Source: Acidobacteriota bacterium (GTDB lineage Bacteria; Acidobacteriota; Holophagae; Thermotomaculales; Thermotomaculaceae). From it: a stretch of 64,000 nucleotides of DNA. Positions 54,656-63,136 of this stretch are shown here, piece by piece; position 1 is the first letter of the stretch, and every line of letters starts with the position of its first letter. The translations under genes were made by a program, and so were the position numbers. The stretch is taken from NCBI GenBank assembly GCA_013152385.1, contig JAADGL010000012.1:1-64000 (forward strand), written 5' to 3'. The notes under the pieces are model-generated. The model searched no databases. It was given only the letters and a program-made list of their open reading frames with translations, and was not told the DNA's origin.

Positions 54656-57600
54656 ATGAAGGTCTCACGATATTTTACCGGAAATTTAACAAACCCGACC
54701 GACGGCGTCCATTTTTCCGGCCGCAGTTCCCGGATGGTGAACCCGGACGGCACGTTGGTTTTTGAAGCATCGGATGTCATGGTTCCGGAATCCTGGTCCC
54801 AGGTGGCCACCGATATCATGGCACAGAAATATTTTAGAAAAGCAGGTATTCCGAAAAAACGGAAACCTGTCCGGGAAGACGGAATTCCCCGGTGGCTGCA
54901 ACGGCATGAACCGGACGAAGAAGCGTTAAGTAAACTTCCCGAACACGAACGAACCGAAGGAGAAACGGATTCAAGACAGGTATTTCACCGTCTTGCCGGA
55001 ACCTGGACATACTGGGGCTATAAACACGGATATTTTGATTCGGAAGAAGATGCCAGAGCTTTTTATGACGAATTGGTATACATGCTCTGCCGTCAAATGG
55101 CCGCCCCGAACTCTCCCCAGTGGTTCAATACCGGCCTTCACTGGGCCTACGGTGTCAACGGGCCGTCCCAGGGACACTTCTACGTGGATCCGGAAACAGA
55201 AACCCTACAGCGTTCCACATCTTCCTACGAACACCCGCAGCCCCACGCCTGTTTCATTCTTTCCATCGCCGATACCCTTGTAAATGAAGGCGGTATCATG
55301 GATCTCTGGACCCGGGAAGCCCGGATTTTCAAATACGGATCAGGATCCGGAACCAACTTCTCAAATCTCAGGGGAAAAGGGGAACCTCTCTCCGGCGGCG
55401 GCCTCAGCTCAGGATTGATGAGTTTTCTCAAAATCGGCGACCGGGCGGCAGGCGCCATTAAATCCGGCGGAACCACCAGAAGAGCCGCAAAGATGTGTAT
55501 CCTCAACGCGGATCACCCGGACATTGAAGAATTCGTGGAATGGAAGGTAAAGGAAGAAGAAAAAGTCGCATCAATGGCTGCCGGTTCCCGGCAGTGTAAC
55601 ATCCACCTGAACAAAATTCTCCGTGCCGCCCAGGGTAAAAACGGAAAACCGAATGTAACTCCCTCTGAAAATCCGGAACTGGCCGAAGCGCTGGGGAATG
55701 CCAAACGCAGCGGAATCCCGGAAACCTACATCTTCCGCATTTTACAGCTCGCAAAACAGGGGGTCACGGAGATTGAATTCCCCACCTTCGACACAAACTG
55801 GGAATCTGAAGCCTACAATACGGTTTCAGGACAAAACTCCAACAACTCCGTCAGGGTTACGGCGGAATTTATGCGGAAAGTTGAAACAAACGATGACTGG
55901 GAACTTAAATTCCGTGTCAACGGCGAAGCCGCCCGGACAATCAAAGCCGGAGAATTATTCGGAAAAATCAGCACTGCGGCATGGGCCTGTGCCGACCCGG
56001 GCTTACAGTTTGACAGCACAATCAACGAATGGCACACCTGCCCGGACTCAGGCCGAATCAATGCGTCCAACCCTTGTTCGGAATACATGTTTCTGGACAA
56101 CACCGCCTGCAATCTCGCCTCTTTGAACCTCCTGAAATTCTATAACACCGAAACAGGGGAACTGGACATCCCCGCATTCAGGCACGCGGTGAGACTGTGG
56201 ACAATCGTGCTGGAAATCTCAGTATTGATGGCCCAGTTTCCAAGTAGAGAAATCGCGGAATTGAGCTATCGTTTCCGCACCCTGGGCCTTGGCTATGCCA
56301 ATATCGGAAGCCTGCTGATGACAGCCGGAATTCCCTACGATTCTGAAGAAGGCCGTGCCATCACCAGTGCCGTTACCGCGCTGATGACCGGTGTTTCGTA
56401 TGAAACATCCGCCGAGCTTTCAAAAGAAAAAGGCCCATTTTCAGAATACCGGAAAAACCGGGAGCACATGCTTCGGGTAATCCGCAATCACAGACGGGCC
56501 ATCTACAACACCGAACACGACCAATACGAAGGGTTGACCGCCTTCCCTTACCGCTTTGACGAAACCCTCTGCCCCGCCTCCCTGCTTCAGGCGGCGCGGG
56601 AATCCTGGGACCGTGCCCTTGAAAACGGAGAAAAACACGGATTCAGAAACGCGCAGGTAACTGTTCTCGCACCGACCGGCACCATCGGCCTGCTGATGGA
56701 CTGCGACACCACCGGAATTGAACCGGATTTCGCCCTGGTAAAATTCAAAAAACTGGCCGGGGGCGGCTATTTTAAAATCATCAACCAATCCATTGAGCCC
56801 GCCCTGAAAAAGCTGGGGTACAGCAGGGATGAAGTCAGAAAAATCACCAACTATTGCATCGGAACCCAGTCGTTTGGCACTGAAAACTGTCCCGTCAACC
56901 GGGAAAGCCTTTCTGAAAAAGGATTCTCCGGAGAAACAATTGATAAACTTGAAAAAACAATCCCCATGTTCTTTGACCTTGAAAGTGTGTTTGACACTTG
57001 GAACATCGGGAAAGAAATCATTGAAAAAGAGCTGAAAATCCCACAGGAAACCCATTCAAAACCGGGTTTTTCCCTCCTCACTGAACTGGGTTTCAGCGCC
57101 GAGGAAATCCAGCTTTCATCCGACATCATCTGCGGCAGAATGACGGTGGAAGGGGCACCTGAACTGAATGAAGAACACCTCCCGGTCTTCGACTGCGCCA
57201 ACAAATGCGGCCGGTACGGCACCCGCTACATTGCGCCGGAAGGGCATCTGAAAATGATGGCTGCCGCTCAGCCTTACATCTCCGGCGCCATCTCCAAAAC
57301 CGTCAACCTTCCCAACTCCGCCACAGTGGAAGATATTGAAAATATTTATATGGAATCCTGGCGCATGATGCTGAAAGCCGTTGCACTGTACCGGGACGGC
57401 TCCAAACTCAGCCAGCCTCTTTCCTCCCTCAGCGACACAGACATTGACCTGACAGCCCTCTCCAACGGAGACATCATGGACACTGCGAAACAACTGGCTG
57501 CCGAATTTATCCGGAAACGGGAACGTCTTCCCTACCGCCGTGCAGGGTACACCCAGAAAGCAAAAATCGGGGGACACTCCGTGTTTCTGCGTACCGGTGA

Positions 57601-58189
57601 ATATGAAGACGGTCGTCTCGGAGAAATCTTCATTGATATGCACAAAGAAGGCGCCGCGTTCAGAAGCCTGATGAACTGTTTCGCCATTGCAATTTCCCTG
57701 GGGCTTCAATACGGCGTGCCCCTTGACGAATACGTGGATGCCTTTGTCTTCACCCGTTTTGAACCCAATGGCATGGTCGCGGGCAACCCCCATATTAAAA
57801 TGACCACATCCGTTATTGATTACATTTTCCGGGAGCTTGCAATTACATATTTAGACCGGTTCGACCTGGCGCAGGTGCTGCCGGAAGATATTCGCCCCGG
57901 AACCCTTCAAAAAAAAGACGAACTGAAATTCAATGGAAACGGAAATGGAAACGGCCATGTAAGCCATCCCCACTCTGTTAAAACCCACCTCCGGTATCAA
58001 AAAGGCGGCCAAACGGGAAAGAAAAACAAAGCTGTCACAAAAGAGGAGGAAAAAGCCGAGCTGATTCGGATTGCCCGCCTGAAAGGCTACGAAGGCGACC
58101 CCTGCCCTGTCTGCCAGCAGTTCACCATGGTCCGAAACGGCGCCTGTCTCAAATGCGTCTCCTGCGGCAACACCTCCGGTTGCAGTTGA
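54656..58189 (+). CDS. nrdJ: Adenosylcobalamin-dependent ribonucleotide reductase (class II)
   Basis: An 1177-residue class II reductase making dNTPs with coenzyme B12, independent of oxygen. The catalytic barrel shows [22 protein letters not shown], the cysteine-bearing finger loop; an early [16 protein letters not shown]; and [19 protein letters not shown]. The C-terminal end carries a zinc-ribbon-like set CPVCQQF and [13 protein letters not shown], where the redox-active pair usually lies. A short repeat (N-G-N-G-N-G-N-G-H) forms the linker before that tail. GGAGAGGGG precedes the ATG. It is transcribed alone from the NrdR-box promoter. No cobalamin riboswitch is visible in the short leader. 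Confidence 0.96.
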
Positions 58190-58344: not shown

Positions 58345-59511
58345 TCAACGATAAAAATCCAGAATTGCTTTAATAACAGTGTCTTTCTGCTCTGCTGTCA
58401 ATTCCGGATAAATAGGCAGCGCGATGGTTTCCTTTGCCGCTTTCTCAGCTTCGGGAAAATCTCCTTCACTGTACCCGAGATATTCAAAACATTTCTGGAG
58501 ATGCAGCGGAACCGGATAGTAAATGGCACATCCGATCCCCTTTTCCCGGAGAAAATCCACCAGTTTATCCCGGTTTTTCACACGGAGAATATACTGGTTG
58601 TAGATGTGATGGTTTCCGTTCACCGCTTTCGGCGTGGCAAAAATTCCATCACAGGCAGCCAAATCAAATGCCTCATTATAGTAAACGGCGTTTTTCTGGC
58701 GCCCGGCTGTCCAGCCGTCCAGATATTTCAGCTTGATTTCCAGTACCGCAGCCTGCAATGCGTCAAGGCGGGAGTTGAACCCCACTTCATCGTGATAGTA
58801 ACGGGTTGATTCTCCGTGCATTCTCAAAGATTTCAAGCGATTGGCAATATTTTCATCGTTTGTGGATAAAGCACCGCCGTCACCGAAGGCACCGAGATTT
58901 TTGCTGGGGAAAAAGGAAAAACACCCAATTTTGCCCATATTTCCGGCTTTCTTTCTCAAATTTCCATCCATAGAACCAATGGATTGAGCGGCATCCTCAA
59001 TTACAGGAATTCCATATTCTTCGGCAATGGACAGAATCTGCGCCATATCCGCGGTCTGGCCGTAGAGATGGACAGGAAGAATCGCACCGATTCTGCGGCC
59101 GGTTTTTCTGTTATATACCGAATTATCCCGTTTTTCCGCATGCTCAGCCAGAAAGGCCCGGAGCTTTTCCGGATTCAGATTGTATGTTATCGGATCAATA
59201 TCGAAAAAAACCGGAACAGCACAGATCCGGGCAATCGCCCCGGCTGTGGCAAAAAAAGTGTAGGGCGTCGTCAGCACTTCCATGTCCCGCTTAACATCCA
59301 GCGCCATCAATGCCAGCACAATGGCGTCGGAACCGCTGGCACAGCCGACGGCGTAAGATGTTCCGCAATATTCAGCTGTTTTTTCTTCAAATGAAACCAC
59401 ATCCGGGCCGAGAATAAAGTATTGACGGTCACAGATGTCTTTTATTTTCGGTTCGATTTCAGCTTTTAACGCTCTGTACTGAATCTTTAAGTCCAGAAGG
59501 GGCACCTGCAT
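58345..59511 (-). CDS. DegT/DnrJ/EryC1-type sugar aminotransferase
   Basis: A 388-residue PLP enzyme that aminates keto-sugar nucleotides for LPS, glycan or polysaccharide building blocks. The internal aldimine lysine is in SFFPSKNLGAFGDGG, the PLP phosphate loop in GCASGSDAIVLAL, and the ring-stacking part in EDAAQSIGS. The N-end V-P-L-L-D-L-K-I-Q-Y is typical. GAGAGGTG precedes the ATG. It follows the LPS-kinase gene by 37 bases on the same strand, so the two may serve LPS or surface-glycan assembly. The exact sugar is unknown. Confidence 0.92.
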   Translation of the reverse strand: MQVPLLDLKIQYRALKAEIEPKIKDICDRQYFILGPDVVSFEEKTAEYCGTSYAVGCASGSDAIVLALMALDVKRDMEVLTTPYTFFATAGAIARICAVPVFFDIDPITYNLNPEKLRAFLAEHAEKRDNSVYNRKTGRRIGAILPVHLYGQTADMAQILSIAEEYGIPVIEDAAQSIGSMDGNLRKKAGNMGKIGCFSFFPSKNLGAFGDGGALSTNDENIANRLKSLRMHGESTRYYHDEVGFNSRLDALQAAVLEIKLKYLDGWTAGRQKNAVYYNEAFDLAACDGIFATPKAVNGNHHIYNQYILRVKNRDKLVDFLREKGIGCAIYYPVPLHLQKCFEYLGYSEGDFPEAEKAAKETIALPIYPELTAEQKDTVIKAILDFYR

Positions 59512-59548
59512 GGTTCACCTCTCTTAAAATAGTCCTGATTACACTACC

Positions 59549-60292
59549 CTATTTTCGGTTAAGCTTCCAGAAAAAAGCACGAATCCTGCGGATTTTCCTG
59601 TAATTTTTCATCGCCTCTCCTACATAATCCGGAACAGTTCCAAACGGAAACCCTTCCCAGAAATGGAATTTCCCCAGTTTATCAAAAGAACGGAACAGAC
59701 GTTTGTAGATGCGGCTCCGTTCCACCGGCGCAAGTGCACCTGGCAGCAGGGCTGCGCGGTCAAAATCAAGGAGAAAATACGCACCTGACACCCGGTCAAT
59801 GAGGATATTTTTGATATTGAGGTCCGGATGATACAGTCCGGCATCAAAAAACCGTTCCAACAGTTTTATCAGCAACTCCAGGGCATCCGGGGTTAAATTT
59901 TCCACCCCGGCAAGGTCTGTCGTGTGGCTGAGATAAACGGTCACAAGGGCCTGATGATAGCCGACCGGTTTTTTCTCCACCAGCGCGAACACCGGTTCCA
60001 CAACAGGAAAGCCCTGTTTTTTCAAACTGGAAAGGATTTCCAGTTCCCGAACGGCACGGGGAATTGCGCCGATGTAGCATTCCCGGAACACGTGGCGAAG
60101 CAGGCCGCCGTGGGCAAAACGGCGAAGCAGGCAGTTCTGCCCCTGAAAATCCCCTTTCAGCAGAAATTTCCGGCCTTTCAACCGGGATAAAACCGCCTCT
60201 TCCAGAAAACGGTGAACCGCTTCACATTGAATTTTTCGCTCCGGGGCGGGAAAGACACGGAACGGCTTACAATTCAAAAATTCTGTTGACAT
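59549..60292 (-). CDS. LPS kinase of Kdo-kinase/WaaP type
   Basis: A 247-residue eukaryotic-like small-molecule kinase. Its catalytic loop is GLYHPDLNIKNILI (H-x-D-L-x3-N), and the metal-binding DFD is in FLLDFDRAALLPG. The N-lobe has the V-R-E-L-E-I-L region. The pattern is that of KdkA/WaaP, which phosphorylate Kdo or heptose in the LPS core and act at the inner membrane face. An N-terminal K in LLKGDFQGQNCLLRRF could be the ATP lysine. It overlaps selA by 26 bases and precedes the DegT-type gene. KdkA specificity is inferred only from family. Confidence 0.78.
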   Translation of the reverse strand: MSTEFLNCKPFRVFPAPERKIQCEAVHRFLEEAVLSRLKGRKFLLKGDFQGQNCLLRRFAHGGLLRHVFRECYIGAIPRAVRELEILSSLKKQGFPVVEPVFALVEKKPVGYHQALVTVYLSHTTDLAGVENLTPDALELLIKLLERFFDAGLYHPDLNIKNILIDRVSGAYFLLDFDRAALLPGALAPVERSRIYKRLFRSFDKLGKFHFWEGFPFGTVPDYVGEAMKNYRKIRRIRAFFWKLNRK

Positions 60293-61649
60293 GGTGTTTC
60301 AATATGGACAAATCATTTTCCGGAATGGTACGGAAATCCAGCAGAAAACGGTTTTCATGAATTCTGCCGATAACCGGAGGCGTCATGCTCCGGAAATGTT
60401 CCGAAAGACTGTCCAAAGATAATCCGGGAGGGGAAACTGCCAATGCCGCGCTTGCAATTCCCTGTTCCGGTGTGGTCCCTCCCCCGATTTTTGCCTGCGT
60501 TTCCACAATTTCACATCCGTTCACGGCTTTCTTTGTCAGAGATTTCAGAAATTCCGAAATTCTCTTTTTCAGCTCCGATACCGGTTCAAAAAGCATCCTC
60601 CACGTGGGAATTTCATCCACACGCCCTGTCAGATAAAGAATCAACTGCTGTTCCAGGGCGGCATACACCAGTTTATCCACCCGGAGGGCCCGGAGCAGAT
60701 GGTTTGCGCGGATTTTGTCCAGAAGTTTTTTCCGCCCGATAATGATTCCCCCCTGGACGCCGCCGAAGAGCTTATCCCCGCTGAATGAAATCAGGTTGAC
60801 GCCGCTGTTTACAGAATCGGAAACCCGGGGCTCTCCCTGAATTCCCAATATATTCAAATCGTAGACATTGCCACTTCCCATGTCTTCGGCAAACGGCACA
60901 CCGCGTTCGGCACAGATTGAAGCCAGACGGGAAGCATCCACAGACTCGGTAAATCCGCTGATACGGTAATTGCTTGGATGTACTTTCAGCACCAGGCCTG
61001 TCTCCGGCCCGATTGCATTTTCATAGTCCCGTAGATGGGTTTTGTTGGTTGTACCGACCTCCACCAGTTTTGCGCCGGCTTTTTTCATAATTTCGGGAAT
61101 TCTGAACGATCCCCCGATTTCAATGAGTTCTCCCCTGGAAACCACTACTTCCCTGCCTGCCGCAAAGGTATTGATAATAAGCAGCACCGCAGCCGCATTA
61201 TTATTCACAACGCAGGCGCTTTCCACACCAAAGAACTTTGCCATCAGCCGTTCCGCGTGAATGTCCCGGTGGCCCCGCCCTCCCCTGTCCAGGTCATATT
61301 CCAGACAGTTATATCCGCTGCCGATTTCCGTAAGGTGTGACAAAACCGGCTGCGCCAGAACCGCCCGGCCCAGATTGGTGTGGATAATAATGCCCGTTCC
61401 GTTTATCACACGCTTCAAAGACGGTTCCAATTGCCTGATGAGAAAGTTTCCGGCAGAATCGATCAGCATTTTCCGTATATCTTCCGGAAGATTCCCCCGC
61501 TGAATTTCATTTCTGAGCTGTTTCACAGCATCTGTCAATGCCTCTTTAACGAGAAACCGGCCGAACTCCGCTTCCAGCGTTTTTGTTTCCGGCCAGTTCA
61601 GAACAGCATCCATTTTCGGAATATTCCGGAAAGCTTCATTTTTGTTCAT
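60267..61649 (-). CDS. selA: L-seryl-tRNA(Sec) selenium transferase
   Basis: PLP-dependent homodecameric enzyme of 460 residues, converting Ser-tRNA(Sec) to Sec-tRNA(Sec). Family stretches are INGTGIIIHTNLGRAVLA (about residues 81-98), YDLDRGGRGHRD, VNNNAAAVLL and the PLP lysine in SFSGDKLFGGVQGG. It shows that the organism inserts selenocysteine; selB, selC and selD are not in this window, and I found no selenoprotein gene here. It overlaps the ThyX-like gene by 14 bases and the LPS-kinase gene by 26. Confidence 0.95.
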   Translation of the reverse strand: MNKNEAFRNIPKMDAVLNWPETKTLEAEFGRFLVKEALTDAVKQLRNEIQRGNLPEDIRKMLIDSAGNFLIRQLEPSLKRVINGTGIIIHTNLGRAVLAQPVLSHLTEIGSGYNCLEYDLDRGGRGHRDIHAERLMAKFFGVESACVVNNNAAAVLLIINTFAAGREVVVSRGELIEIGGSFRIPEIMKKAGAKLVEVGTTNKTHLRDYENAIGPETGLVLKVHPSNYRISGFTESVDASRLASICAERGVPFAEDMGSGNVYDLNILGIQGEPRVSDSVNSGVNLISFSGDKLFGGVQGGIIIGRKKLLDKIRANHLLRALRVDKLVYAALEQQLILYLTGRVDEIPTWRMLFEPVSELKKRISEFLKSLTKKAVNGCEIVETQAKIGGGTTPEQGIASAALAVSPPGLSLDSLSEHFRSMTPPVIGRIHENRFLLDFRTIPENDLSILKHHVNRIFEL

Positions 61650-63084
61650 CCGGAAACACCTTGTCTTTTATTTTCTTAAATTCATGCTTTCCACAGGCCA
61701 TCATGAAAGTCAAGGGCGCCGTATCCCGCACACGGTCCAGCATCTCACCGGCAATGGCACGAATGTCCCACTGAGCGTGTTTATCCGCCCGCAGCCGCAC
61801 GAAATGATACATTTCACGGGCATTCAATTTGAAAAGCACCCGTCTGCGGTGCCCGTTTGTCAGACAATAAGCCGCCGCAGAAGCATTCTGTTCCGAAAGA
61901 CGGCGGTAAACGCCGTTTACCCGGCGGGCCAAATCCAGATAACCGGTCTCCACGCACGCGGCAACCATGGTCTCCGGTATTGTCACCCCCAGTTCAGGCA
62001 GATACGGCTGGGGAATCAATGTTCCCATCCGATGACGTTTTAACTGGGCAAAGGCGGTGGCGGAAAGGATAATTTCAAAGGTAAACTCCGTATTCTCAAA
62101 CACACGATTCACCGAATGATAACTGTTCATGTCCTGAAAAAGTTCCAAAAAGAGTGATTTTCTCTCTTCAAATGTCATTTTCCGGACAGCAGCCGCCCCG
62201 GTGTCAAAAGAAACGGGCGCTCTGCTGAACAGCAGCGTTTCCAGAACACTGTCATCCGGATTCGGGCTGTGGGAAAGCAGGTGGACAGCAGAATTCTGCT
62301 CGCCGCCCCTGGTATCTGATTTGGGAACAAACGGAAACCGGGCGGCAAATTTCCCGGCATTCAGATGATAGGTGTCCGGTGCGGTATATTTTACAAGGGA
62401 CGGCACCAGATCGCCGCAGCAGGCAAATAAGCGCCGCCCAAGCTCCCGCACCTCCGCAAGGGGAGCCGCCCGGAGTTTTTGAATCATGTTTTCCAGAGTC
62501 CGCCCGTTCACCGTCATTCCCAGCTGGCCCCGGATTGCCAGCGGAAGCGCGTATCTTGCATCTTCTTTGGCCTTCAAAGACGCTTCCTTCGGTTCCTCTC
62601 CGTTTTCAATCAATGTCTGCTCAATTTCGGAATACGCCCGGCGGTAAAATTCATTCTGTTCCTGTATCAGCGCGCGGAACTCACTGCGCAGCGGTTCGGC
62701 GGAAAACTCTTCCGGAATCAGCCCGTTATCGTCAATTTTGATATAACGCTGGGATTTTTCCGTGTAAGAGGCCAGACGGAAATGTTCCAGATATTCAATC
62801 GCCAGCCGGGAAACATCAATTACATCAAAATTGAAACATGCATGTTCGGCAATAGACGCATGGCCAAGGCCGAATACGATCTGTTCGTTTGATTTACGGG
62901 CCTTTTCCACCGCCTCCCGTGATTTCTCCCGCAGCACATTCACATCCGCCGGATTCCGGCTGATTCTGGCATAGGCCGCCGAAACGGTTTCCGGGGTCAA
63001 AGCGGCTTCGTCCACCGCTTCACCGCGCTTCAACCGTTCAATCAAATCCCTGTCAATATTGTATCCCGCAAGTAATATCTTCAT
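61636..63084 (-). CDS. Double-domain flavin-dependent thymidylate synthase (ThyX tandem)
   Basis: A 482-residue protein, twice the usual ThyX length (220-250). Both halves resemble ThyX. N-half: G-H-A-S-I-A-E-H at 74-81, then H101-F-R-L-A-S-Y-T-E-K-S-Q-R-Y114, which keeps R, S, E, S, R-Y of the ThyX motif RHRxxSxNExSxRY but lacks the first R-H. C-half: F-T-F-E-I near 335, R350-H351-R352 retained but S.N..S.RY lost, then NAREMYHFVRLRADKHAQWDIR as in the ThyX C-terminal helix. ThyX makes dTMP from dUMP with FAD and CH2-THF. Pairing the two halves could rebuild a complete site. The start lacks a ribosome site and lies 8 bases from TATAAT. ThyX activity is inferred. Confidence 0.82.
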   Translation of the reverse strand: MKILLAGYNIDRDLIERLKRGEAVDEAALTPETVSAAYARISRNPADVNVLREKSREAVEKARKSNEQIVFGLGHASIAEHACFNFDVIDVSRLAIEYLEHFRLASYTEKSQRYIKIDDNGLIPEEFSAEPLRSEFRALIQEQNEFYRRAYSEIEQTLIENGEEPKEASLKAKEDARYALPLAIRGQLGMTVNGRTLENMIQKLRAAPLAEVRELGRRLFACCGDLVPSLVKYTAPDTYHLNAGKFAARFPFVPKSDTRGGEQNSAVHLLSHSPNPDDSVLETLLFSRAPVSFDTGAAAVRKMTFEERKSLFLELFQDMNSYHSVNRVFENTEFTFEIILSATAFAQLKRHRMGTLIPQPYLPELGVTIPETMVAACVETGYLDLARRVNGVYRRLSEQNASAAAYCLTNGHRRRVLFKLNAREMYHFVRLRADKHAQWDIRAIAGEMLDRVRDTAPLTFMMACGKHEFKKIKDKVFPDEQK

Positions 63085-63092
63085 GGTTTTTC

Positions 63093-63098
63093 ATTATA
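63093..63098 (-). promoter_or_regulatory. -10 box ahead of the double-ThyX gene, leaderless arrangement
   Basis: TATAAT on the minus strand ends 8 bases before the ATG at 63084; no Shine-Dalgarno site. Confidence 0.5.
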
Positions 63099-63136
63099 AA
63101 GCAAAGGAGCTCATCCGTAAAACAGAAAGAACATAC

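Follow-up and report, generated by a model that had tools for sequence, protein, structure and literature searches.

A tandem ThyX of an Acidobacteriota bacterium with active-site residues divided between its two domains

Introduction

The flavin-dependent thymidylate synthase ThyX provides a building block essential for DNA. Ordinary ThyX enzymes (PF02511, TIGR02170), like those of Thermotoga maritima (TM0449), Mycobacterium tuberculosis (Mtb) and PBCV-1, are homotetramers with four active sites, each assembled at an interface of three identical subunits. In one such site, the RHR triplet and Mtb R199 (R174 in T. maritima) belong to subunit A, Mtb S71 and R190 to subunit B, and Mtb R87, S105, R107, and Y108 to subunit C (PMC6514825). 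Likewise, one monomer of the PBCV-1 enzyme supplies Q75 and R182, and a different one S88 and Q89 (PMC3498832). A ThyX "domain duplication" in Chloroflexi has been reported, uncharacterized, by Valas and Bourne (2009; PMC3224940). Its architecture is probably the same as that of the protein treated here, and the passage concerned gives no account of a residue split, of structure, or of function. Here, we describe a tandem ThyX of 482 residues from an Acidobacteriota bacterium (assembly GCA_013152385.1), encoded in the first 64,000 nucleotides of contig JAADGL010000012.1, the whole stretch of DNA that was analyzed and is called the window below. The tandem architecture was already noted in 2009; a search limited to the open-access literature returned no description of the complementary division of active-site residues.

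Two ThyX Domains With Complementary Active-Site Residues

The gene thyX (61636..63084, minus strand, ATG start) was assigned with Pfam and NCBIfam profiles. An earlier sequence-only reading of this DNA had described its product as a chain of 482 residues made of two ThyX-like halves and had proposed a profile search of each half, which bears it out. The N-terminal half (N-half) holds a Thy1 domain at residues 30-228 (62401..62997, minus strand; 108.9 bits) and the C-terminal half (C-half) a second one at residues 269-457 (61714..62280, minus strand; 90.1 bits), both above the Pfam PF02511 cut-off of 24.8 bits. The whole protein scores 134.9 against the thyX equivalog TIGR02170 (NCBIfam), above the cut-off of 87.9 that the single halves miss with 77.0 and 67.6. 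The C-half is predicted to have the ThyX fold, as its AlphaFold2 model, made from this half alone, has a mean predicted local distance difference test (pLDDT) of 91 and its 50 best Protein Data Bank (PDB) hits are all T. maritima ThyX; for the N-half, the same fold is suggested by sequence. Alignment of ordinary ThyX with the full chain gave a mixture of N-half front and C-half tail, which was left unused for folding.

Both halves were aligned to the ThyX of T. maritima, in a sequence confirmed with PDB 1kq4 and with the numbering used here for family positions, and to that of M. tuberculosis. The RHRxxSxNExSxRY-type motif is incomplete in either domain and whole only across both. The N-half reads HFRLASYTEKSQRY at residues 101-114 (62743..62784, minus strand), with H, F, and R at positions R78, H79, and R80; the R78 and H79 equivalents are lost, and S83, E86, S88, R90, and Y91 are retained, the last three being the dUMP-side residues S111, R113, and Y114 (dUMP, deoxyuridine monophosphate). 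The sequence-only reading had placed this motif correctly, with R, S, E, S, R, and Y kept and the first R and the H gone; a minor correction to add is that R103 corresponds to the last R of the RHR triplet. It was also right that the C-half, which reads RHRMGTLIPQPYLP, keeps R350-H351-R352 (62029..62037, minus strand), the triplet at R78, H79, and R80 that binds flavin adenine dinucleotide (FAD), without S.N..S.RY: the S88 and R90 equivalents are lost, in an alignment that is loose just after RHR and leaves the individual letters at S88-Y91 uncertain.

The division extends to residues outside the motif. R177 (62554..62556, minus strand) is the equivalent of R147 and has lost its C-half counterpart (A405), while R432 (61789..61791, minus strand), the equivalent of the catalytic R174 of subunit A, has K203 as its N-half counterpart, so that the R147 position is kept in the N-half only and the R174 position in the C-half only. 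As both lie far from the motif and yet obey the split, the pattern is not just that of one lost stretch. R93 (62806..62808, minus strand), the equivalent of Mtb R87, which contacts dUMP from subunit C, is matched by A342 in the C-half. S77 (62854..62856, minus strand), the equivalent of T55 and Mtb S71, which contacts FAD from subunit B, is matched by R327 (62104..62106, minus strand), a conserved Arg found at the T55 position in the C-half only. The second residue with a subunit B role, Mtb R190, has equivalents in both halves (R195 and R423), which are poorly conserved and uninformative on the split. The dUMP-side set of the N-half thus comprises R93, S111, R113, Y114, and R177, and the FAD-side set of the C-half Q347 (the Q75 equivalent), R350, H351, R352, and R432. 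Because ThyX structures place these two sets on different subunits, the split tracks structural role and not sequence neighborhood. The window protein resembles ordinary ThyX in the family match of both halves and in having all active-site residues somewhere in the chain, including the R174 equivalent (R432, C-half) together with those of S88, R90, and Y91 (S111, R113, and Y114, N-half). It differs from ordinary ThyX in that its domains are fused, that neither has a complete site, and that two sites are predicted for four domains.

Conservation of the Split and Selection on Both Halves

The split was followed in 88 tandem relatives, which are all open reading frames that gave two domain hits among the fetched loci, picked without use of the motif. 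This motif-blind set, in which the term refers to the pick since the search profile was built from halves including 57 motif-selected tandems, supersedes an earlier table of those 57. At least 47 families of the phylum are represented in it, along with plasmids of Paenibacillus, Bacillus, Miltoncostaea, and Euzebya and two phage records. The N-halves hold S88, R90, and R147 in 88/88 and Y91 in 86 (two have F), and S or T stands at T55 in 88/88 and H53 in 64/88, neither of which is kept by the C-halves. The C-halves in turn hold R78, H79, R80, and R174 in 88/88, two of them reading RHNR, and 84/88 have R at position T55. By comparison, 23 single-domain ThyX proteins hold S88, R90, Y91, R147, and R174 in one chain, as do 76 of 80 viral single ThyX proteins for the full set, in loci found partly via the RHR pattern.

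Both halves are under purifying selection: the ratio of non-synonymous to synonymous substitution rates (dN/dS) between species is 0.06-0.09 for the N-half and 0.11-0.15 for the C-half, with higher values for the linker. This pattern in every motif-blind tandem, together with purifying selection on both halves, indicates that the split is not due to chance. A pseudogene or a decaying half was considered and rejected on the same dN/dS values (0.06-0.15). In a tree built from 27 tandems and 25 single-domain ThyX proteins, one branch sets apart all N-halves and another all C-halves (support 85 and 92, neither starred). When the active-site columns are left out, the N-halves remain together (83), and a single C-half clade is not rejected (approximately unbiased test, p 0.655). 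The tree is compatible with one old duplication and fusion, without proving it. The proposal of the sequence-only reading that duplication, fusion, and sub-functionalization gave complementary halves is well supported, as kept and lost residues sort in 88/88 tandems according to the subunit that contributes them in ThyX crystal structures.

Among the relatives, RHNR in the C-half is the reading of two Bacillota tandems, on plasmids of Paenibacillus and Bacillus licheniformis (L107 and L108), in which the T55 position holds E instead of R. Tandem ThyX divided in the same way is encoded by Tunturiibacter phage Tunturi_5 (L111:1938-3494) and a human faecal phage (L112). Viral scans for further tandems led to one locus, on a 340 kb viral contig (L145:7046-8512), which encodes a tandem ThyX of 488 aa sharing 44% identity with the window protein. 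Two relatives from the same class (L048 and L049) have a single-domain ThyX with an in-frame insert of ~400 aa immediately after KHR and ahead of SEFNEISGRY, flanked in an intein-like manner (C...HN/S).

Thymidylate Synthase Genes in the Genome and the Phylum

The window thyX is the only Thy1 gene in the source genome (2.57 Mb, 99.3% complete), in which ThyA (PF00303) has no match either, making it the sole gene for a de novo thymidylate synthase; a normal thyA or thyX elsewhere, which the sequence-only reading had named, in combination with a failure to bind FAD and dUMP, as evidence that would speak against it, was thus not found. In the phylum, 198 of 396 genomes have two Thy1 matches and 96 of 396 a strong ThyA, and a strong ThyA occurs in none of the 198 (Fisher p about 5e-36, with shared ancestry ignored). 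Three further genomes with two matches were set aside, namely two with a single ThyX with insert and one with a single ThyX and a partial second hit; the two-match status was inspected in detail for the fetched loci only.

Proposed Arrangement of the Enzyme

The window protein is very probably a working flavin-dependent thymidylate synthase of two fused, specialized ThyX domains. The C-half would play the part of subunit A, with RHR for FAD, Q347 (Q75), and R432 (R174), which would activate dUMP, and the N-half that of subunit C, with the dUMP-binding and lid residues R93, S111, R113, and Y114 as well as R177. The N-half probably also gives the FAD contact of subunit B (S77). With the A role in the C-half, the C role in the N-half, and S/T55 in N-halves only, each site would be made of one C-half and two N-halves, in A, C, and B roles. 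Since the two N-halves of a site must come from different chains, we infer an obligate dimer in which two chains would assemble into a four-domain pseudo-222 tetramer. It would have two complete sites and one FAD per chain rather than per domain, and the other two possible sites would be dead. The sequence-only reading had the two halves together forming one complete site; the complementarity stands, and a complete site probably needs domains from at least two chains, since three subunits build each site.

A different geometry, in which the C-halves pair with their FADs face to face, R327 takes over the subunit B contact, and the N-halves give the dUMP side only, is possible but doubtful. A phosphate of FAD could be bound by the Arg that 84/88 C-halves carry at the T55 position, but the S/T55 of all N-halves and the H53 of 64/88, both absent from C-halves, would then face no FAD. 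That thymidylate synthase activity has been lost in favor of another role with FAD and/or dUMP, as the sequence-only reading had allowed with a changed activity, is very unlikely: the motif is incomplete in each half, each half falls below the thyX equivalog cut-off, and the genome encodes thymidine salvage, but the full catalytic set is present across the halves and conserved in 88/88 tandems (Y91 in 86), the gene is the sole one for de novo synthesis, and no two-match genome has a strong ThyA. Least credible of all is a reading in which one half is decaying or serves only as a structural scaffold and the other half is active by itself. The C-half does evolve faster than the N-half (0.11-0.15 vs. 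0.06-0.09), but purifying selection is strong on both, and each half holds catalytic residues that its partner has lost in 88/88.

Several observations weigh against a working enzyme of this kind. The AlphaFold2 model of the full chain is poor (pLDDT 46, predicted template modeling score 0.32, with four tandem sequences in the alignment), and the C-half model has modest TM-scores of 0.6-0.74 vs. T. maritima ThyX, from an alignment of ordinary viral ThyX that favors a ThyX fold, so that this evidence is not fully independent. A thymidine kinase gene (PF00265, 178 bits; G000:C6:9568-10086, plus strand) provides a salvage route to deoxythymidine monophosphate, and consequently the thyX product need not be essential. 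Weak ThyA-like hits occur in 12 of the 198 two-match genomes, and two genomes of the same family, G005 and G006 (97% and 89% complete), have neither ThyX (Thy1) nor ThyA, which may reflect assembly gaps or reliance on thymidine salvage.

If the proposed fused enzyme works as described, the separation of subunit roles within one chain would allow FAD-side and dUMP-side residues to be mutated independently, which is impossible in a homotetramer, and would open the three-subunit model, the required number of sites, and half-site behavior to direct tests. The split may also explain how many bacteria can have, as their only thymidylate synthase, a protein without a complete motif in either copy. 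A rather unlikely extension is that the two dead sites are not empty and that the Arg at T55 in 84/88 C-halves marks a ligand or regulatory pocket derived from the vacated FAD site; such a pocket would be a means of control of the widespread tandem ThyX that single-domain ThyX lacks. The ThyX of Chlamydia trachomatis has about twice the usual length and may be a tandem as well. It reportedly was studied biochemically by Griffin et al. (2005, J Biol Chem; cited in PMC8316439), and if it is a tandem of the kind found in the window, tandem activity has already been measured.

Gene Start and Neighborhood

A promoter-like TTTACG-17-TATAAT (63093..63121, minus strand) ends 8 nt before the thyX ATG, and two same-genus relatives (L003 and L004) share the TATAAT box and its spacing. 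No Shine-Dalgarno sequence was seen upstream of the ATG (63085-63121), and the start is probably leaderless. The gene selA shares 14 nt with the end of thyX; next come genes for a Kdo/WaaP-type kinase and a DegT aminotransferase (58345-61649, minus strand). The order thyX-selA-kinase-aminotransferase is kept in the same two relatives and is apparent, by open reading frame sequence, in a sister genus (L037). Because this order is conserved, selA is a stable neighbor and not a functional clue. The selA neighbor and the leaderless start, which the sequence-only reading had regarded as oddities, are both ordinary given the conserved gene order and TATAAT box, and were rejected on these grounds as clues to function. 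A B12-dependent class II ribonucleotide reductase with a TSCPD domain is encoded near thyX on the opposite strand (54656-58189, plus strand).
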